A stretch of 64,000 nucleotides of DNA from Kiritimatiellaceae bacterium. GTDB lineage: Bacteria; Verrucomicrobiota; Kiritimatiellia; Kiritimatiellales; Tichowtungiaceae. The first letter of the stretch is position 1; the number at the start of each line of letters is the position of its first letter. Positions 8,614-18,475 of the stretch are shown here, piece after piece. The notes beneath the pieces were generated by a model. It saw only the letters and a program-made list of their open reading frames with translations. It did not search any database and was not told the origin of the DNA. Where the stretch lies: positions 62,001 through 126,000 of the forward strand of contig JABFQY010000002.1 of assembly GCA_013141415.1 (NCBI GenBank), written 5' to 3'. The translations under genes and the position numbers were made by a program.

Positions 8614-9366
8614 TTACCAAAACCAATAGGCGCCGGTATAAACAGCGTACCAGCCGAGCAGTCCATTGGTAACAGCGTGCGCCAGGACGGCGGCCCAGAT
8701 ATCGCGGGTTTTCACCATCAACCAGGTGAAGATCAATCCGCAGAGGAATCCCATCAGCCATTCGTTGTGTTCAAGCGCGAACAGCACGGCGACCAGAATG
8801 CACATTCCGTTGTCAAGCTTGCCGATGTCCTTTTGGAAAAACGGACTGCCCTGCATCCAGCGGTAAACGAAGCCGCGGAAGAAAAACTCCTCAATCATGC
8901 CGATTACCAGCGTCGTGCCGAGCATGTGAACCCAGAACAGCGGCCAGCCGGTGGTGCGCGGGTCGTAGTGGTAAAGTCCGTTCGCGCCCATTTCGAGCGG
9001 CTCGCGCAATTTGCCGAATTTCGTCATCCCGACCAGATAGCGCTCATAGAATTCGCTGATCTTCGGAAAGACGCTTTTGAAAAATTCCGATTCGAGGCCG
9101 ACCCAGAAAACAAACACCAGCAGGCCGACCGCCAGCGCGAGCGGAACGTTCTTGAGTTTCGGCGGCGTGTACCAGCGCCACGGTCGGCAGATCAGCAGGA
9201 GAATAATTCCGCCGAGAGTCTGAATGGCGTAACGGGGTCCGGACGGATCGCCCAGCAACGACATCATCAACAGCCACGCCAAATACGGAATGGAATGCAC
9301 CCAGACCGCTTTGTCGTTTTCCTTATCCAGCTCCGGCGTCCAATCGTCTTTTAGTTTTGCAGACAT
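8614..9366 (-). CDS. CPBP-family intramembrane protease, CAAX prenyl protease-related (PEP-CTERM-associated type)
   Basis: 250 residues with about seven or eight hydrophobic segments. It has the family's conserved EExxxR (EEFFFR, E159/E160/R164), a downstream His in FALEHNEW (H200) and AHAVTN (H230, N234). These make up the metal-binding site of CPBP/Abi proteases. The overall form and the C-terminal YAVYTGAYWFW resemble the CAAX-related proteins that co-occur with PEP-CTERM/exosortase systems, and a PEP-CTERM protein lies at 56259-56873 in this window. No exosortase gene is in the window. No good ribosome binding site is seen before the ATG at 9366. The first 30 bp of this gene are found again at 11882-11911 with one mismatch. 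Confidence 0.8.
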   Translation of the reverse strand: MSAKLKDDWTPELDKENDKAVWVHSIPYLAWLLMMSLLGDPSGPRYAIQTLGGIILLLICRPWRWYTPPKLKNVPLALAVGLLVFVFWVGLESEFFKSVFPKISEFYERYLVGMTKFGKLREPLEMGANGLYHYDPRTTGWPLFWVHMLGTTLVIGMIEEFFFRGFVYRWMQGSPFFQKDIGKLDNGMCILVAVLFALEHNEWLMGFLCGLIFTWLMVKTRDIWAAVLAHAVTNGLLGWYAVYTGAYWFW

Positions 9367-9403
9367 GCGGCGGAAACTACCGGACGGATTCCCGGCAGAA
9401 AAG

Positions 9404-9452: not shown

Positions 9453-11828
9453 TCAGTGCGTTGCGGCAGCAGCGTAACAGCGGATCTCTGCAATGGCCGC
9501 CGAAGGGTCACCGCCGGTTGCCTGAATCAGTACGCGGAGCCGTTTGACGGTTACCGGTTGCGGCAGATCGTGGTTGCGGCGGCGGTTCCAGTTGTCCCGC
9601 ACCCGCACCACCTCATTCCACACGCCGTTGCCGGCATCCACTTCAATTGAATATTCGCGGGCATTTTGCGAAGCGCGGTAGAATGGCGGCTCGCTGTGAA
9701 CCTCCAGCAACATCTGTCCCGGAAAAGTCAGCTCAACGCGTTTGATCGTTTGCGGAACATCCCAGGCCAGCTCCAGCCATTGCGGCAGAGAACGGTCTGG
9801 TGCGCTGCGCCAGCATTCCGGCCCCACCCCGGGCCGGGTGCGTCCACTGAGAACAGAGGCGGGTTCATACACCGCCTGCACCGGTTCAATCTGGAACGAA
9901 AGTGTATGGTGGTGGCTACGCTGCTTGGATGGCGATACTCTGCGGCGGGACGAATGCCCCGGCAGGCGGTACTGTGTGGAACGCCAGACGGCTCCGGCGC
10001 AAGGCCCCGCCTGCAGGCAGACATAGCCATCCGGAACATTCTCGAGCGAAACATCCCACCAGACCCAGCGGCTTTCGCCGGGCTGCGCTGTAATTACCCC
10101 TTCGGCCAATACACCTGCGCCATCGGTTCTGTAATCAAAGATGTCCGTCAACCGCACCAATCGAACCGGGATGTTCACTGCGCTGTCACCTTCAACATTA
10201 AGACACAGACCCAGCCGATCAATCCGCCCGCCGGAAACCGAGATCAACTGGCCAGGCAATACATCCAGAGACAGCGACCCTTCCAGCCAGCGAGTCAGAC
10301 CCGCTTCGTTGGACTGATCGAGCGGGGAAACCCCCGAGACGGTCGCGCTGGAACTTGCTGTGACACGGGCCAGCCGCGCAATGTCGCTGGCATCGGTGTT
10401 GCGCAGATTCGGCAGGAAACAGCCGTCGCGCAACAGCTGCTGCTGAATCTCGCGGATGGCGCTGCCGCCAGCGGCGGCATCGGCGGCGAGATCTGGCAGG
10501 CTGAGGTTGCGGGCTCTGGCCAGCCCGGCGGCCGTGCCGATCGCCTGACCCATGAGAGCGGTTGTGGCCATAACGCGGACGGTTCCCAGCGCGGCGCGAG
10601 TGACGGAAATGCACCGGCCCGCAAGCATCAGGTTGTCCACATCCCGGGCGATCAGACTGCGAAGCGGTATTCCATACGGGCCGACATAACTCTTGGCCTG
10701 ATATTCGCTGTCAGCGCTATACCCTTCCGCGCTGGAAGGTTCAGAGGTAGAAGCCAGAAGTCCTCCCGGTGTATGCAGATCAACAAACCAGCCGCCATAC
10801 GCCACTTCATCCGGAAACTTATTTTTCGCCTGTATATCGTTTTCGGTCAGCCAATAGCGGCCGACGACACGGCGGCTTTCCCGCTTACCGGGAACCTGTC
10901 CGATAAAATCCAGTGCAAAATTTTTGCAGGCTTCTTTCATGCGGGGGTCACGGTTTTTCATCCAGTCCCACACACCGAGCGCATGGCGCGTCAATTCGCG
11001 GCGAATAGTTTCGTTTTCGTGGATCGTGTGCCACGGAATGCCGATTTCAATCCACCAGTATCCACCGGTCGGGTCGGACGGCGGACGCCCCTGTTTATAG
11101 AAAAAGTCGGCATCGTCGTAATATACCGCCCAGTCTGGCGCCTGAAAGGGACACGGGTGCCCCATATCGCGGCCGCGAAGAAGAATCGTACTTCCCATCG
11201 TGTCTGTGCTGGCGGTTTGAGGTGCATGAACCTCTCCGGTTTCAGCCTGAGATTCGCTTCCCATGCGCCACTCGCAACCGGCCTGGTCGGCAATAAAACC
11301 GTCCCCGGTGCAATCAGCGAACAGTGGCGCCCGAAGCTCCAGTTCCAGCTCGGCGGAAAGTGTGCGGGCGACTACTGCTGTAATCTGACGGCTGGTGGCG
11401 CACGCTTTACGCAGATAATACCCGGACTTTGTGTCCGGCAGATGACTCGCCGCCGCGCCGTGATCCATTAGAACATCCACGACGCAGGTGTTGAGATGCA
11501 ACGTGAGATTGGGTGTGCGGGAAACCAAATCATAAATCGCCATATCAAATATGCTGTTGGTCCAGCCGGTTTCATTGATGGTTTCATGATTAGCCTGTCG
11601 TTCCGCCTCCAGAATTTCATGAATAATGCCGGTTTCTCTGGCATACGCATGGTGGCAGGCCGCGCCGTGTATGGTCACGCGGGTTTCAGAACTGGCAACC
11701 CCGCCCAGAACAGGCCGCTCATGAACCAGGCAGGTGCGCAATCCCTGCCGGGCCGCCGCAATCGCCGCACACACGCCGGCCATTCCGCCGCCGACTACAA
11801 CAAAATCATACTCTTGAATCTGCTTCAT
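9453..11828 (-). CDS. FAD-dependent oxidoreductase with C-terminal beta-sandwich region
   Basis: 791 residues, cytosolic (no signal peptide). The N-terminal Rossmann FAD site is visible as VVVGGGMAGVCAA (about 10-22), with EDR-like ERPVLGG next. Further conserved pieces are FADCTGDGFIADQAG and the late MLAGRCISVTRAALG that closes the FAD site, typical of the FAD_oxidored family often encoded beside glycan-degradation genes. From about residue 560 the protein changes to a beta-rich part ending in a discoidin-like region (ELTFPGQMLLEVHS; ITAQPGESRWVWWDV), possibly carbohydrate-binding. The substrate is unknown. Its ATG overlaps the TGA of a 28-codon relict ORF upstream as ATGA, so expression may depend on translational coupling. 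Confidence 0.85.
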   Translation of the reverse strand: MKQIQEYDFVVVGGGMAGVCAAIAAARQGLRTCLVHERPVLGGVASSETRVTIHGAACHHAYARETGIIHEILEAERQANHETINETGWTNSIFDMAIYDLVSRTPNLTLHLNTCVVDVLMDHGAAASHLPDTKSGYYLRKACATSRQITAVVARTLSAELELELRAPLFADCTGDGFIADQAGCEWRMGSESQAETGEVHAPQTASTDTMGSTILLRGRDMGHPCPFQAPDWAVYYDDADFFYKQGRPPSDPTGGYWWIEIGIPWHTIHENETIRRELTRHALGVWDWMKNRDPRMKEACKNFALDFIGQVPGKRESRRVVGRYWLTENDIQAKNKFPDEVAYGGWFVDLHTPGGLLASTSEPSSAEGYSADSEYQAKSYVGPYGIPLRSLIARDVDNLMLAGRCISVTRAALGTVRVMATTALMGQAIGTAAGLARARNLSLPDLAADAAAGGSAIREIQQQLLRDGCFLPNLRNTDASDIARLARVTASSSATVSGVSPLDQSNEAGLTRWLEGSLSLDVLPGQLISVSGGRIDRLGLCLNVEGDSAVNIPVRLVRLTDIFDYRTDGAGVLAEGVITAQPGESRWVWWDVSLENVPDGYVCLQAGPCAGAVWRSTQYRLPGHSSRRRVSPSKQRSHHHTLSFQIEPVQAVYEPASVLSGRTRPGVGPECWRSAPDRSLPQWLELAWDVPQTIKRVELTFPGQMLLEVHSEPPFYRASQNAREYSIEVDAGNGVWNEVVRVRDNWNRRRNHDLPQPVTVKRLRVLIQATGGDPSAAIAEIRCYAAAATH

Positions 11829-11911
11829 CTTTTATCCTCATAACCGGCCTTGTCGAAATAACCGGCCTTGTCGAATTTCGTCGTCCAATCGGCTTTTAGT
11901 TTTGCAGACAT
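11825..11911 (-). pseudogene. 28-codon relict of the CAAX-protease-like gene, now a mini-ORF overlapping the FAD gene
   Basis: The first 30 bases (11911-11882) match the first 30 bases of the gene starting at 9366 with one mismatch, encoding MSAKLKADWT against MSAKLKDDWT. Homology then stops. The frame continues through two 18-bp tandem units that encode FDKAGY twice and ends in a TGA overlapping the ATG of the FAD oxidoreductase gene. It could act as a translated leader. Confidence 0.75.
11840..11875. repeat. 18-bp perfect tandem duplication
   Basis: The unit ATAACCGGCCTTGTCGAA occurs twice in direct succession (11840-11857 and 11858-11875), in frame within the mini-ORF upstream of the FAD oxidoreductase gene. 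Confidence 0.9.
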
Positions 11912-11959
11912 GGTGCGCAAGGTATCGGAAGCGGTTCTTTTCTGAAAGAAAAAATCGGG

Positions 11960-12443: not shown

Positions 12444-13676
12444 TCAGTCACAGGTGCTTTGAACATATTCGTGCAACGTCAGAAATACTCCGGCGGACCA
12501 GCCCATCATCGGCGCGGCTTCGTATTCGCCGCCAGCCACCTCGCCGGTTTCGGCGTCGGTCTTTTCCCAGAGCTGGCCGGTCTTTTCAAACAGCAAGATC
12601 GCGGTCTGAATATATTTCCCGGCAATGCGCCGCGCTTCTTTTTCGTATCCGTAACGGCGAAGTCCTTCAACTGTGATGTAAACCAGCGGCGGCCAGACAT
12701 TGGGATAATCCCACTGGAAGCCTCGCCGCTGTTCGGGTTCCGCCGCGCAAGAAATTCCATGCTCGCGCTCAAACAGCGGCAGGTTGGCGACCATTCGCGC
12801 GGCCTGCTCTTCGCTGGCCAGGCCCGCGGCCAGCGCGTTGAATCCGGCGAGCGACGGAGCCGGACTGGACTTCCCGTTTACAAAGTCGTAGTCGAGGAAC
12901 AGGCCGGACTTTTCATTCCACAGATACCGGTTCATCCGCTCGTGTCTCTGCGCCGCGCGGTTTTTCCACAGCGCCGCATCGCCCCAGCCGAGCGACTCCG
13001 ACACGTCCAGCAAATACACTTCATACTCGTAGAGAAGCGCGTTCAACTCCACCGGACAATAATCCAGACAGCGTCCTTCGAAGCGCGGAGTGAAGTCGCA
13101 ACCGGACTCCGCCTCCGCCATATAGTGCCCACCGACGTGGACTTTTTCTTCTGAAGAGGCGGCGGGTGAAAATTTGAGCCGGTCGATCAGGTACTGGTTA
13201 TAAAAACCTTCACAGCCTTCCGCCGTGTCATGATGTCCGTAGCGATTCAGTCCGACAGGTGTAAAGCGCGCCGTCGTCCAGAAGTGATATTCCTGCCGTA
13301 ACCCGTCCGCGCACTCGGCAAGGAAATCGCAGTCGCCGGTCGCCGCGATATATTCTTTGACCATGCGGCAGAGATACGGCGCCTGCGAACGGTTATAGAG
13401 GCCGATATAATTCGGCATGTAACCCTGCCGCTTGATCAGCCAGAGCATGTTCTGAATGTTGGCCTTGGCAATTGCCGCGCGGCCGCTTCGAAGCAGTCCG
13501 GCATTGGTGAAATACGTGTCCCAGTAGAAAAAATAGTAAAACTTCCCTTTGCCCTTTATGCAGGGCGAGGTGTACGGGAACGGAAGATCCACGCCGCCAA
13601 AGCCAGCACCGGGCGCGTCTCGGTAAATCGAAGACTCCCAGTTTGCCTCAATGTAGGAAAGGATGTCCTGCCTCAT
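12444..13676 (-). CDS. trehalase-like glycoside hydrolase (GH37 type)
   Basis: 410 residues from the ATG at 13676, chosen because GGAGAAAAAT precedes it; an upstream in-frame ATG at 13751 would add 25 unlikely residues. The two family signatures are recognisable in altered form: KFYYFFYWDTYFT corresponds to the PGGRFxExYxWDxY motif, and QWDYPNVWPP to QWDxPxGWxP. The protein is an (alpha/alpha)6-barrel type enzyme, shorter than E. coli trehalases (about 540 residues), and has no signal peptide, so it acts in the cytosol. Substrate may be trehalose or a related alpha-glucoside; the altered first signature makes the exact specificity uncertain. Confidence 0.75.
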   Translation of the reverse strand: MRQDILSYIEANWESSIYRDAPGAGFGGVDLPFPYTSPCIKGKGKFYYFFYWDTYFTNAGLLRSGRAAIAKANIQNMLWLIKRQGYMPNYIGLYNRSQAPYLCRMVKEYIAATGDCDFLAECADGLRQEYHFWTTARFTPVGLNRYGHHDTAEGCEGFYNQYLIDRLKFSPAASSEEKVHVGGHYMAEAESGCDFTPRFEGRCLDYCPVELNALLYEYEVYLLDVSESLGWGDAALWKNRAAQRHERMNRYLWNEKSGLFLDYDFVNGKSSPAPSLAGFNALAAGLASEEQAARMVANLPLFEREHGISCAAEPEQRRGFQWDYPNVWPPLVYITVEGLRRYGYEKEARRIAGKYIQTAILLFEKTGQLWEKTDAETGEVAGGEYEAAPMMGWSAGVFLTLHEYVQSTCD

Positions 13677-13817
13677 ATTTTTCTCCGTGCGGTTGCTGGA
13701 CACGGAATCTATCCGAGCCTTGGTCAATGCAAAAGCTGAATTCATCGCCAACCGTAGCGTGCCACCAGAGCTGGTCGCAGTGGACGGCGGCGGAGTCTTG
13801 TGTTACACCCTCACGCC

Positions 13818-14843
13818 ATGCCGATTCTCCTCAAAAACCAGACCGCCGAAGAACTGCACAGTCAGCTCGGCATTACGCTCCGTCAGGCGCGGATGATTCA
13901 AGCCGTCGTCATCCGGAAAGGCAAACTGCCGGAGGCGCAGGCCGAGATTTCAGAAAAGGCGCTGAAAGCTCTCCGCGCCGCGACAGAGATTCCTAACCTG
14001 ACCGTTTCAGATAAACAAATTTCGCCGCAGGACGGCTTCGCCAAATATCTGTTTCACGGCGACGGCCCGGAACCGTTCGAAGCTGTCCGCATTCCGCTGA
14101 TGCACCGCGCGGAAGATCAGAAATATATTGTCTGCGTCAGCTCGCAGGTCGGCTGCGCGATGGGCTGTTCGTTCTGCTACACCGGCAGAATGGGATTTAT
14201 CCGCAACCTCTCCGCATGGGAAATGGTCGATCAGGTACTCAAAATCCGCGACGACTCCGAACATCCGGTGCGCGGCGTGGTCTTCATGGGCATGGGCGAA
14301 CCGCTCCTTAACTACGACGAAGTCATCCGCGCCGCACGCATTCTCTCCGAACCGTGCGGCGGCGCCATTTCCGCCAAAGCCATCACCATTTCCACCTCCG
14401 GTATCACGCCCGCCATCCGGCGGTTCACGGCGGAGCAATATCCTTTCCGGCTGGTCGTCTCGCTCACTTCCGCCGATCCGCAAAAACGGCTTGAACTCAT
14501 GCCGGTTGAAAAGTTGCACCCGACCGCCGAACTGATGGACGCGCTCCGTGAACGCCACCATGTCACCAGAAAGCGGATTCCCTTGGCGTGGATTATGATC
14601 TCTGGAGTTAACACCGCTGAAAAAGATGCCAAGCAACTGGCGGAACTGACGCGCGGAATTCCGGTCATGCTCGATCTGATCGACGTCAACGATCCGTCTG
14701 GAAAATTTGTTCCGCCCTCACCGGAAGAACTGTCTGCGTTCCGCGACGCCTTACGTCTTCATCTCGCCGCACCCGTCACCCGCCGTTACAGCGGCGGCAA
14801 AGATATCGGTGCAGCCTGTGGCATGTTAGCTGGCGCGGAATAA
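13818..14843 (+). CDS. rlmN: RlmN-type 23S rRNA/tRNA adenine-C2 methyltransferase
   Basis: 341 residues. The radical SAM cluster motif is C113-AMG-C117-SF-C120. The preceding C106 in VCVSSQVGC and the C-terminal C334 in GAACGML correspond to the two catalytic cysteines of RlmN (C118 and C355 in E. coli), so the enzyme should be active. FMGMGEPLLN is the SAM-binding motif. Family function: methylation of A2503 in 23S rRNA and A37 in some tRNAs. I started at ATG 13818 (MPILL); an upstream in-frame ATG at 13800 is also available. The last 123 bp occur again in diverged form at 16040-16162, evidence of recombination at the 3' end of this gene. Confidence 0.92.
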   Translation: MPILLKNQTAEELHSQLGITLRQARMIQAVVIRKGKLPEAQAEISEKALKALRAATEIPNLTVSDKQISPQDGFAKYLFHGDGPEPFEAVRIPLMHRAEDQKYIVCVSSQVGCAMGCSFCYTGRMGFIRNLSAWEMVDQVLKIRDDSEHPVRGVVFMGMGEPLLNYDEVIRAARILSEPCGGAISAKAITISTSGITPAIRRFTAEQYPFRLVVSLTSADPQKRLELMPVEKLHPTAELMDALRERHHVTRKRIPLAWIMISGVNTAEKDAKQLAELTRGIPVMLDLIDVNDPSGKFVPPSPEELSAFRDALRLHLAAPVTRRYSGGKDIGAACGMLAGAE

Positions 14844-14873
14844 TGAAATGGAATTAAAGGAAATTTTACGTGT

Positions 14874-15905
14874 TCACACGGCGCCTTTAGTACGGGCCGA
14901 GACGCAAGATTCTGGTGTGTTGTTGATCCGATCATCAATTGTCGCTTCATACTCAAACACATAATCTCCAACGGGAAGATTGACCCCAAAAGCCATTGAC
15001 TTAAGCCCAATGTGAAAATCAAAGTTCGTCCCAGTGCCGGGGGCAAAACGAAAATCGCCAGCAATCAGATCCGGCGGATGCGAGACCAACTTTGTTGAGA
15101 TACGCGGCACACTCCGCATTTGTGGAGCCAGACGGCCCGACCCTGTAGCTCGGTATACCGGCCTCAGAAGGCGCACCCTAAGGGTTCCTTTCTGTTTAGA
15201 ATCTGTCCCACCGGCAATATTTTGTTCAACACTAACTGCCGGTGGTGGAGGGGCTAATCGAACAAAACTTTGCTGTATCGGTAATTGTTTTTTCGCATTT
15301 TCGATTCGTTCTTCAACAACTCGCAGTTGTTCGGTCACCTTGGGCTCATCGATCTCACTGACAGCGCCTGTACTTCTCTCGGCCTTAAGACGTTCATAGG
15401 TCTCATTATCTTGCAAATACTCGCGGAGTTTATCGTACTTCTTTTCAATGGTTTTCCGAGACGCCAGCGAAACGACGCCCAGCCAGTCATTGCGAAAGGC
15501 CTCATTTGATGAGGCTAGTGATGCAGTCATATCTGCTGCAGCCTCGACCCGATGGCGGTACGCGTTTATCGCGGCGGCAAGATGAATGGCGGACTCGTTG
15601 TCTGCTACATCAAGAGTCTCTTGAAGATAGCTTTTGAGGTGCTGGAGCTGTAGAGAGAGATGAACCATCTTCTCTGTTGACTGTTCCGCGATGGTATCGA
15701 CTTTCTCCGACGTACTGCTTCTTGCAAAAAAATATCCAGTAATAACTGCAGATATACTGGAAAGCCCAAACAGAATGATGTTAAGAAGATTTGTAACCAT
15801 TGATGATGGCGCGGGCGAAAGCCACGCGAGAGCAATCAGGGCGATCGCACCAATCAGACTGACTCCGAGGATAATCAATGCCGTTATGTCTTTGAATTTG
15901 TTCAT
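14874..15905 (-). CDS. unknown membrane-anchored coiled-coil protein
   Basis: 343 residues, not recognised. Two hydrophobic helices near the N-terminus (about 8-29 and 37-60) are followed by a long charged helical stretch to about 215, rich in Glu, Lys and Gln and likely coiled coil. A proline-rich patch APPPPA comes next, then a beta-rich C-terminal domain of about 100 residues. A likely topology is two membrane helices with a cytosolic or periplasmic rod. Its base composition looks more AT-rich than the flanking genes. It lies in the segment bounded by two copies of the rlmN 3' end, which suggests that it arrived by horizontal transfer. Function unknown. Confidence 0.7.
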   Translation of the reverse strand: MNKFKDITALIILGVSLIGAIALIALAWLSPAPSSMVTNLLNIILFGLSSISAVITGYFFARSSTSEKVDTIAEQSTEKMVHLSLQLQHLKSYLQETLDVADNESAIHLAAAINAYRHRVEAAADMTASLASSNEAFRNDWLGVVSLASRKTIEKKYDKLREYLQDNETYERLKAERSTGAVSEIDEPKVTEQLRVVEERIENAKKQLPIQQSFVRLAPPPPAVSVEQNIAGGTDSKQKGTLRVRLLRPVYRATGSGRLAPQMRSVPRISTKLVSHPPDLIAGDFRFAPGTGTNFDFHIGLKSMAFGVNLPVGDYVFEYEATIDDRINNTPESCVSARTKGAV

Positions 15906-16039
15906 AGTATCTCCTTTTTTATGCCGCCATTATATTATGTTTTTTGAACATAGCGGACGGCGCGTCAGACTGCAACAGAAGTTTCTTTTATAGAAACTCT
16001 TCAAGGTTGCGAAGCGAAGGAAAAACGTAGACGTTTTCG

Positions 16040-16162
16040 CCGGAAGAACTATCTGCATTCCGCGACACCCTACGGCTTCACCTCGCCGCGCCCGTCACCC
16101 GCCGTTACAGCGGTGGTAAGGATATCGGCGCCGCCTGCGGCCTGCTCGCCGGCGTGGAATGA
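16040..16162 (+). pseudogene. relict second copy of the rlmN 3' end
   Basis: These 123 bp align without gaps to 14721-14843, the end of rlmN, with 19 differences by my count (about 85% identity). Read in the rlmN frame it gives the same C-terminus including GAACGL-L and ends in TGA. Only three amino acids differ (A to T, M to L, A to V); the other changed sense codons are synonymous. There is no rlmN coding sequence upstream of 16040. Confidence 0.9.
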
Positions 16163-16515
16163 TGGGATCCAGAAAATCGAAGCTGATTCAAAACGGTCTT
16201 CATAAAATCCGCCGACAGCTCTTCATGGCCATCCGCGAAACGGATCGTGTAGGATGATCCGCTCATGATGGATTTCGTGGCGCAAAGCTCTATAAAATCT
16301 TCTGCCGTGCGGATTTTCTGACTTTGCTTGGTCCATTTGAGCTTCAGATGATCGGCGGCCTCTGCAGGAGTATGCTCACTGCCGTTCCTGATGAACACCG
16401 CGCCACCCAGACTTCGTACCGTCTCGATCAGCGCCTCAATCTCGGCCGCTGGTTCAGCATAAGAACATGCTGTAATGCCTAGAAAAGCCATGACGGTAAT
16501 AAATCTTCGGAGCAT
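16105..16515 (-). CDS. DUF5329-family (YfeK-like) periplasmic protein with altered C-terminus
   Basis: 136 residues from ATG at 16515, preceded by AGGATC. Residues 1-20 are a signal peptide ending near TACSYAEP. The body carries the DUF5329 pattern: EIEALIETVRSLGGAVFIRNG, then HTPAEAADHLKLKW, TAEDFIELC and SIMSGSSYTI. E. coli YfeK (about 124 residues) is of this family; its function is unknown. The last 20 or so residues (from about HHSTPASRP onward) are read from the antisense strand of the relict rlmN fragment, so the original stop has been lost and the tail replaced. Confidence 0.8.
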   Translation of the reverse strand: MLRRFITVMAFLGITACSYAEPAAEIEALIETVRSLGGAVFIRNGSEHTPAEAADHLKLKWTKQSQKIRTAEDFIELCATKSIMSGSSYTIRFADGHEELSADFMKTVLNQLRFSGSHHSTPASRPQAAPISLPPL

Positions 16516-16542: not shown

Positions 16543-16665
16543 TAAACAACCGAAGCCGCGAATGTAGCCGGACGGTTTGTGTGTGGCAAACTGGAAATGG
16601 TTGCGTCCGAGACAAGGCAGGCGGAACGCCTGCGGTACGTATCGTAACCGTCCCGGTTGCCTTGG
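16543..16665. repeat. long direct repeat, copy 1, with internal hairpin
   Basis: About 120 bp, starting TAAACAACCGAAGCCGCGAA, closely match 16944-17088. It contains the hairpin GCAGGCG-gaa-CGCCTGC at 16617-16633, followed by GGTACGTATCG. No gene is seen in it. Immediately after come further GC-rich inverted repeats up to about 16715. Confidence 0.9.
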
Positions 16666-16725
16666 AGGGACGGCGGCCTCGCCGTCCTTGGTCACCGAGG
16701 CCGGTGCCCCTCCAAATGAATCGCA

Positions 16726-16905
16726 TCACCAAACGCGCCAGAGCTGCTTCCACTTTTTCAGTCCACGCTCCCAGAACAAGGCCAGGACCGCTCCGACCGG
16801 AATGGCGAGGAGGAGCCGCCTCTTTTGCGGCATGGACGCCAGGATCAGCGCAATGGGCGCGAGGATAACCAGCCAATAGGTCACCAGACAAAAAATCTTT
16901 TTCAT
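16726..16905 (-). CDS. small membrane protein, unknown
   Basis: 59 residues from ATG at 16905 (an in-frame ATG at 16950 would add 15). It has two hydrophobic helices, KIFCLVTYWLVILAPIALIL and LLLAIPVGAVLALFW, then a basic, Trp-rich tail. The ribosome binding site is weak (GCGAGAAG next to the ATG). The gene sits exactly between the two copies of the long direct repeat, so it looks like a cassette carried with that repeat. Not recognised; coding status is moderately sure because of the membrane-protein pattern. Confidence 0.5.
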   Translation of the reverse strand: MKKIFCLVTYWLVILAPIALILASMPQKRRLLLAIPVGAVLALFWERGLKKWKQLWRVW

Positions 16906-16943
16906 CTTCTCGCGTCCAAACAGGGTTTCAGTTTCTTGCGGGT

Positions 16944-17088
16944 TAAACAACCGAAGCCGCGAATGTAGCCGGACGGGTTGTGCGTAGCAAACTGGAAATG
17001 GCTATGTCCGGGACAAGGCAGGCGGGACGCCTGCGGTACGTATCGTAACCGTCCGGTTCGACAGGCTCACCACAGGCCGGTTGCCTTG
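16944..17088. repeat. long direct repeat, copy 2, with internal hairpin
   Basis: Second copy of the 16543-16665 repeat, 401 bp downstream. The hairpin here is GCAGGCG-gga-CGCCTGC at 17018-17034. An extra segment of about 20 bp (GGTTCGACAGGCTCACCACA) lies between GTAACCGTCC and GGTTGCC. Confidence 0.9.
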
Positions 17089-17160
17089 ACTCGCCCGCTG
17101 AGGGCAGCGGGCCTACAAACCCAATGTAGGCCGGGTGCCCTCACCCGGCGAACGTTTCGG
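17089..17160. repeat. cluster of dispersed-type GC hairpins
   Basis: Two perfect inverted repeats follow each other: GCCCGCTG-aggg-CAGCGGGC at 17093-17112 and CCGGGTG-ccct-CACCCGG at 17131-17148. No coding signal is seen between 16951 and 17206. Confidence 0.8.
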
Positions 17161-17206
17161 GATTGCGAAACCGCGCTGAACCATGGACACTCCCGACGCT
17201 TAAACC

Positions 17207-18475
17207 ATGAATCCTCAATCGCAAATCATAAATCGAAAATCGGCAATCGAGCTAATGAGCCCTGCGGGCTCCGAGGCGGCACTGGCGGCGGCGATCCGCG
17301 CCGGCGCGGATTCCGTTTATTTCGGTGTCGGCAAACTCAATATGCGTGCCCGTTCCGCCGGTCTGGCGCCGGAAGACCTGCCGAAAATTGCACGTCTTTG
17401 CAGCACGGCGGGCGTGAAGAGTTACCTCGCGCTGAACACGATTGTTTACGACGGCGAGATGGAGGAGATGCATGCGCTGTGCGATGCCGCCAAAGCCGCC
17501 GGGGTTTCCGCCGTGATCGCCACCGACATCGCGACGATTGAATATGCCCGCGCCATCGGCCTGGAAGTTCATATTTCGGTGCAGGCGAACGTCACCAATT
17601 TTCAGGCGCTGGAATTTTATGCCCGCTACGCCGATACGGTGGTGCTGGCGCGCGAACTCTCACTCGAACAGATTTCCGCCATCGCGAAAAAGGTTCAGGA
17701 TAAAAACCTGCGCGGCCCGTCCGGCGAGCTGATCCGCCTCGAACTGTTCGCCCACGGCGCGCTGTGCGTCGCCGTCAGCGGCAAATGCTACATGAGCCTC
17801 GCGCAGTATGACCACTCCGCCAACCGCGGTGCCTGCTTCCAGCCGTGCCGCCGAAGTTACCGCGTCACCGACGAGGAAACCGGCGCGGAACTGGTGATCG
17901 ACAATAAATATGTCATGTCGCCGAAAGACATCTGCACGGTTCAATATCTGGACAAAATTACCGCCGCCGGAATTTCGGTGCTGAAAATTGAAGGACGCGG
18001 ACGTTCCGCCGATTACGTCGCGACGGTGACAAAGGTTTACCGCGAGGCGCTCGACGCGCTGGCCGCCGGAACCTATACGCCGGAAAAATTTGATCCTTGG
18101 ATTGCCGAGCTGAGCAAGGTGTTTAACCGCGGATTCTGGCACGGCGGCTATTATTGCGGTGAAAAGCTGGGCGAATGGGCGGGAGCCGCCGATTCGCAGG
18201 CGACCGAACAGCGCGACGAAGTCGGCGTGCTCAGTAATTTTTTTGCCAAGACCAATATCGCCGAATTCACCGTGCGGCGCCACGCGATTAAAAACGGCGA
18301 CTCGCTTCTGCTTGAAGGGCCGACGACCGGCGCGCTGCGGTTTACCGTCGAGAATCTACGCGTCGGCGGCGAACCGGCGGACGAAGCGCAGCCGAACGAT
18401 GTCGTTACGCTCGCCCTGCCCCGTAAAGCGCGGCGGCAGGATAAAGTTTTCCTACTGACGCCGCGCGGAAATTAA
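17207..18475 (+). CDS. trhP: peptidase U32-family tRNA hydroxylation protein (TrhP/YegQ-like)
   Basis: 422 residues. It opens with the typical IELMSPAGS and contains the U32 signature ELFAHGALCVAVSGKCYMS near 185-203, with further conserved cysteines in GACFQPCRRSY that together coordinate a cluster. Later segments YVMSPKDICT and LKIEGRGRSADY are diagnostic for the family. Known members (TrhP, RlhA, UbiU/V) are Fe-S proteins for oxygen-independent hydroxylation that use prephenate; TrhP hydroxylates tRNA U34. The assignment to TrhP rather than a sister family rests on length and overall look. The start at 17207 keeps the usual IEL before the SPAG motif. The gene overlaps the convergent GH116 stop by 4 bp. 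Confidence 0.8.
   Translation: MNPQSQIINRKSAIELMSPAGSEAALAAAIRAGADSVYFGVGKLNMRARSAGLAPEDLPKIARLCSTAGVKSYLALNTIVYDGEMEEMHALCDAAKAAGVSAVIATDIATIEYARAIGLEVHISVQANVTNFQALEFYARYADTVVLARELSLEQISAIAKKVQDKNLRGPSGELIRLELFAHGALCVAVSGKCYMSLAQYDHSANRGACFQPCRRSYRVTDEETGAELVIDNKYVMSPKDICTVQYLDKITAAGISVLKIEGRGRSADYVATVTKVYREALDALAAGTYTPEKFDPWIAELSKVFNRGFWHGGYYCGEKLGEWAGAADSQATEQRDEVGVLSNFFAKTNIAEFTVRRHAIKNGDSLLLEGPTTGALRFTVENLRVGGEPADEAQPNDVVTLALPRKARRQDKVFLLTPRGN

Follow-up and report, generated by a model that had tools for sequence, protein, structure and literature searches.

How did this bacterium come to carry the 3' end of an rlmN gene twice, 1.3 kb apart, with another gene in between? The window, that is, the whole stretch of 64,000 nucleotides that was analysed, lies within contig C2 (301,554 bases) of a 2.2-Mb genome in 7 contigs. 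The closest named relatives were metagenome genomes labelled Verrucomicrobia and Pontiellaceae, and the broader match set took in Kiritimatiellae, Lentisphaerae and others. The locus was compared with congeners G005, G008, G012, and G013, among 13, and with class sets of 345 genomes for the rlmN tail and 332 genomes for the inserted (cargo) gene. The genome has three RlmN-like genes; for the one at this locus, the best NCBIfam model was PRK14470, with a score below the cut-off of that model. Close orthologues of this accessory rlmN (75-88%) were found in 4 of the 13 congeners (G008, G013, G005, and G012). The features of the locus, and of comparable loci elsewhere in the genome, are listed in Table 1.

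Table 1. Features of the rlmN-U32 locus and of other loci with gene-end remnants. Positions without a contig name are those of the window.
Feature	Position	Strand	Basis or remark
Full-length accessory rlmN-like gene (radical SAM methyltransferase) with copy A as its end	13818..14843	+	ORF; Radical_SAM; orthologues
Copy A, 3' end within full rlmN	14718..14845	+	Repeat alignment
Cargo gene, 343 aa, hydrophobic N-terminus, without family	14874..15905	-	ORF; family searches
P, U32-gene leader at right end of insert	15928..16036	+	Homology to G013 and G005 U32 leaders
Putative illegitimate junction, leader P / rlmN stump	16033..16040	.	U32-leader homology fades, rlmN homology starts
Copy B, orphan rlmN 3' end	16037..16164	+	Repeat alignment
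DUF5329 gene, last ~20 codons antisense through copy B	16105..16515	-	PF17263, 4e-24
74-aa ORF; in G013 directly after rlmN	16726..16950	-	86% over 222 bases to G013
P', present U32-gene leader, G008-like	17154..17206	+	Leader comparison
U32 peptidase family gene, native neighbour to the right of rlmN	17207..18475	+	PF01136; gene order in congeners
Rce1-like (CPBP) gene 5' end; full gene 8614-9366	9321..9384	-	Second site of similar kind
Diverged 5' remnant of Rce1-like gene beside tspO	11866..11929	-	80% identity
leuS 3' end, cargo of 202 aa, leuS 3' stump	C2:131326-132549		Repeat of 270 bases, 95%
Radical SAM gene: stump, AAA_14/DUF4143 ATPase cargo, full gene	C2:224979-226450		Repeat of 119 bases, 90%
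HEAT-repeat gene, cargo TPR protein			Repeat of 137 bases, 91%
Pseudouridine synthase gene, weaker case	C3:115110-116232		Repeat of 66 bases, 85%; cargo of 303 aa, no Pfam family

Divergence of the two rlmN 3' ends

The original prediction held that the last bases of rlmN recur 1.3 kb downstream without gaps, with about 19 differences, nearly all of them synonymous. The alignment agreed with this: copies A and B form a gap-free direct repeat of 128 bases with a spacing of 1319 and 84% identity (blastn E 5e-33 in a 460-kb sample of the genome). The homologous stretch runs from about 14718/16037 to 2 bases beyond the stop codon; left of 16037 the resemblance to rlmN ends, and right of the stop codon it ends in both copies. 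Of the 40 coding codons compared, 17 differed, at 18 bases in all, with 15 synonymous and 3 non-synonymous changes (dN 0.047, dS 0.65). A split of 15:3 has a P of about 2e-6 if all changes are neutral. This pattern of purifying selection is seen directly in the two copies, and it bears out the claim that both were under selection in working rlmN genes.

Polarising the changes with four congeners assigned 6 synonymous and 0 non-synonymous derived changes to copy A and 3 synonymous and 2 non-synonymous changes to copy B, while 7 (6 synonymous, 1 non-synonymous) were ambiguous. At the rate on the A side, a neutral copy B was expected, by simple arithmetic, to have gained about 16 non-synonymous changes, against the 2-3 observed, which rules out that B was a bare neutral stump from the start. 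A recent duplication was ruled out by the synonymous pattern of the A/B changes. The sequences thus indicate that most of the divergence built up while both copies belonged to working genes, and, because few non-synonymous changes are found in B, that it became a stump only recently.

In a tree of the tail, which rests on few sites (120 bases), A and B formed a pair (UFBoot 92), yet their branches were long (0.08 and 0.13) and comparable to the branches between congeners. A grouping of the copies as recent duplicates had been named beforehand as evidence against replacement; the grouping was found, but not the recency. At the 18 differing sites, the matches of the four congeners to A and B were 9:8, 6:9, 9:6, and 7:7. 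A second orphan rlmN 3' copy was found nowhere else in the 48 of 345 class genomes that matched the last 41 residues (E < 1e-10). The orphan piece thus occurred only here among the 48 class genomes with this rlmN subfamily, and the suggestion that the rlmN 3' end is a recurrent target did not hold up.

Layout between rlmN and the U32 gene

The 343-aa ORF is the sole ORF of the insert, and family searches assigned it to no recombinase family. No full-length relative of this cargo gene was found in the other 331 of the 332 class genomes, which gave four weak short matches; the rlmN body beside it is homologous to that of the congeners. Phages and viral contigs gave no match to the cargo, and the one match in plasmids covered the C-terminal part only. 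Residues 222-323 are similar (34%, E 7e-8) to a portion of a plasmid protein from Sphingomonas that carries the annotation PIN domain-containing. Structure prediction from the single sequence gave a mean pLDDT of 47; the product would be a membrane-anchored accessory protein at most. The G+C content of the insert was lower than that of its surroundings. The insert does not look like a transposon, since no transposase family was found in it, nor any inverted repeats pairing both ends beyond short weak matches.

The right end of the insert, P, is homologous to the U32 leaders of two congeners, with 72% identity over 95 bases in G013 (whole-genome search, E 2e-6) and 85% over 33 bases in G005. 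The leader scores of P were 87 for G013 (best of 200 shuffles 27), 46 versus 26 for G005, and 26 versus 26 for G008. The U32 gene itself stands 1.2 kb to the right of the P-B joint and has its own leader, P', the best match of which was the G008 leader (score 92, against a shuffle best of 27). Two leaders are therefore present, with no similarity to each other above shuffles and with affinities to different congeners. Because the insert ends in a U32 leader while the native U32 gene keeps leader P', the locus consists of two stacked rlmN-U32 intervals: copy A, the 343-aa gene, and P, followed by copy B, the DUF5329 gene, the 74-aa ORF, P', and U32. At the joint between them, a U32 leader ends and rlmN sequence from within the gene begins, with no noteworthy shared stretch; at a guess, microhomology there may amount to three to four bases.

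The DUF5329 gene is without its usual end, and the rlmN stump (16105-16162), read antisense, adds about 20 codons to it; relatives of this protein in the class stop a few residues past the domain. A 111-base direct repeat (93%; 16543-16653 and 16944-17054) lies on both sides of the 74-aa ORF, and 25 places in the genome match parts of the stretch 16543-16720. To the left of rlmN, a trehalase-like gene (12444-13751) separates it from tspO; the two are adjacent in G008, G013, and G005.

In G008 and G013, a single contig carries rlmN followed by U32, the two genes being separated by about 11 kb and 2.5 kb of other content. In G005, contigs C80 and C230 overlap at their ends; read across the overlap, the order is rlmN, one other gene, a leader, and U32. 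The interval between rlmN and U32 thus varies within the genus. The comparison with relatives lacking the insert, proposed at the outset, was informative in this respect, but rlmN beside the 343-aa gene was not found in other genomes, and a donor arrangement was thus unseen for the rlmN site. Sliding identity and informative sites gave no clear breakpoint in the rlmN body. Both results weigh against the import proposed below.

Possible origin of the stacked intervals

The best explanation, to which we give a probability of about 0.68, is that the rlmN-U32 interval of a congener was imported, with one end joined by homology and the other illegitimately. DNA from the congener's version of the locus would have entered the cell, and homology would have joined one of its sides to the chromosome; this would have happened in or past rlmN, or in or past U32, according to which version was foreign. 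At the other end, the leader before the U32 start would have been attached within rlmN, some 120 bases short of its stop codon, with a few bases in common at most. The result would be one full rlmN, one full U32, both versions of the interval in tandem, and the rlmN 3' stump B at the joint. Stacked intervals with an illegitimate joint are the remnant expected from an import that is homologous on one side. The incoming version may have been A, in which case the crossover would lie to the left, or B, in which case it would lie in or beyond U32. From the sequence we infer that a congener was the source, that a crossover by homology took place, on one side only as would define this route, and in which order the steps occurred. 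No published work on natural transformation in Kiritimatiellota was found.

It had been proposed that foreign DNA replaced rlmN or its 3' end and left the old 3' end behind. Two joined alleles with a kept stump are indeed the most fitting reading, and the proposal is largely right; it was incomplete, as the insert also carries a U32 leader, and either copy may be the native one.

An old tandem duplication of rlmN within the lineage, extending through leader P, would also produce a tandem layout and the sister placement of A and B in the tail tree, provided that both copies stayed functional for long before the 5' part of one disappeared and the genes in the interval changed. Such a history is unlikely: it requires several events, it does not account for leaders P and P' being dissimilar and aligned with different congeners, and as an early stump B should bear far more non-synonymous changes than 2-3.

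Import joined by homology on one side is known in kind as homology-facilitated illegitimate recombination. Kirchberger et al. (2017; PMC5361080) propose this recombination for Vibrio T6SS immunity arrays, point to orphaned Rhs 3' regions, and cite experiments in Streptococcus, Pseudomonas stutzeri, and Acinetobacter; PMC3240628 reports the same process in conjugation in E. coli. In that process, one end is joined by homology and the other without it, and DNA is gained beside the anchor, as would also hold for the present locus; non-homologous DNA beside a homologous anchor, and another joint with a few matching bases at most, were both found here. The present case differs in that a partial heteroallelic duplication of a gene end was kept, at ordinary genes and in an uncultured lineage, and in that uptake and crossover are deduced from sequence. 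The immunity arrays and orphan Rhs 3' regions of PMC5361080 likewise have a new module after the anchor and an old 3' part moved downstream and kept, but no toxin or immunity gene is known here, and the stump is debris of a housekeeping-type gene. What is of interest, the recurrence at ordinary genes in an uncultured lineage, is as yet no more than suggestive.

Gene-end stumps at other genes

A full 3' end, a cargo gene, and a downstream 3' stump were also found at leuS, a radical SAM gene, and a HEAT-repeat gene within 859,554 bases (39% of the genome). A pair scan, from which alignments of <50 or >1000 bases, spacings of >10 kb, and families with >3 other matches were dropped, gave 27 pairs in the own genome, 16 in G009, and 22 in G023. 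The five named 3'-stump genes (rlmN, leuS, radical SAM, HEAT, and pseudouridine synthase) were chosen by eye from the 27. The 303-aa cargo at the pseudouridine synthase gene presumably resembles REP-associated transposases, as judged by eye. Farther along C2, at 273854-274313, the 3' end of a gene for a small membrane protein is repeated in tandem (97%) together with the bases downstream of it, without cargo.

The leuS copies differed by 10 synonymous and 3 non-synonymous coding changes, and so did the radical SAM copies. At the insert-free leuS site of G013 the next gene follows after 236 bases; in the own genome, a fitting distance of about 223 bases separates the stump from that gene. An insert-free HEAT site was found in G008. 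In G004, the radical SAM gene and the ATPase cargo are neighbours on a single contig (83% over 3,005 bases; cargo 88% over 519 bases), which is an arrangement expected of a donor, and radical SAM copy A was nearer to G005 (94%) than to copy B (91%). In G008, a decayed radical SAM 3' stump lies beside the same neighbour, followed by another gene and with no body in that contig; such stumps thus exist in an independent assembly. A site of similar kind at a gene's 5' end was found 5 kb to the left of rlmN, where an FAD-dependent oxidoreductase gene (9453-11828) stands between the 5' end of the Rce1-like gene and its remnant; G008 has tspO directly beside the Rce1-like gene. All four stumps (rlmN, leuS, radical SAM, and HEAT) are downstream of the full gene. 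A simple reason would be that the only joints to survive are those leaving one intact gene with its promoter.

We also applied a uniform rule, which took the last or first 300 bases of each ORF (E 1e-6) and required the repeat to reach the gene end and the other copy to lie outside same-strand ORFs. Of 34 rows in the own genome, 6 remained: the four loci with a downstream 3' stump (rlmN, leuS, HEAT, and radical SAM), the rlmN pair seen from the DUF5329 gene, and a short 5' tandem on C3. In the relatives, the numbers were 0/13 in G009, 2/55 in G023, 0/15 in G013, and 0/0 in G008, and the two rows of G023, one 5' and one upstream at 67%, differ in architecture. The rule does not detect the pseudouridine synthase pair on C3 or the Rce1-like 5' pair. 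With 859,554 bases scanned in the own genome and 1,188,129 in the four relatives together, the chance that all 4 loci fall in the own genome at equal rates is about 0.03 by simple arithmetic, so the excess over the relatives is only suggestive.

These loci also bear on whether metagenome assembly joined two strain alleles end to end. False joining would give the same layout, the layout recurs within this assembly, and the uniform scan found none in the samples of G013, G009, and G008. Against such an artefact, which we regard as quite unlikely, the copies differ by 5-16% across pairs, the joint has no long shared word, the genome is in 7 contigs, and the radical SAM stump beside the same neighbour in G008 comes from an independent assembly. 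Stumps can also stem from gene loss, because the G008 contig with the radical SAM stump has no full copy of the gene. Applied to rlmN, loss would have left the 3' stump, beside which rlmN and the cargo gene were later re-acquired; this is very unlikely, as the few non-synonymous changes in B point to a short time as a bare stump and leader P in the insert is left unexplained.

SCC elements at rlmH are genomic islands that restore the 3' end of the gene. A site-specific mobile element of this kind would, like the present loci, insert at the 3' end of a gene, supply a substitute end, and recur at 3' ends. It is nevertheless a highly improbable source: the insert has no recombinase and ends on the right in a U32 leader, there is no identical core, the repeats here are 84% identical over 128 bases and across genes vary in length from 60 to 270, the genes differ, and an orphan rlmN end was found in 1 of 48 genomes.

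Import of congener DNA joined by homology on one side thus remains the preferred reading of the rlmN locus. It is a more tentative idea, and one we would not yet favour, that the lineage repeatedly stacks gene-plus-neighbour intervals of congeners, so that one-sided recombination with relatives would be recorded across the genome in datable 3' stumps at housekeeping genes. One-sided gene gain has been demonstrated in the laboratory and is hard to spot in nature. Diverged gene-end stumps, together with insert-free relatives, would provide a readable and countable trace of it in an uncultured group. The stumps could reveal which genes act as anchors and the age of each event, and the repeated scars at ordinary genes make a genus-wide count worthwhile.
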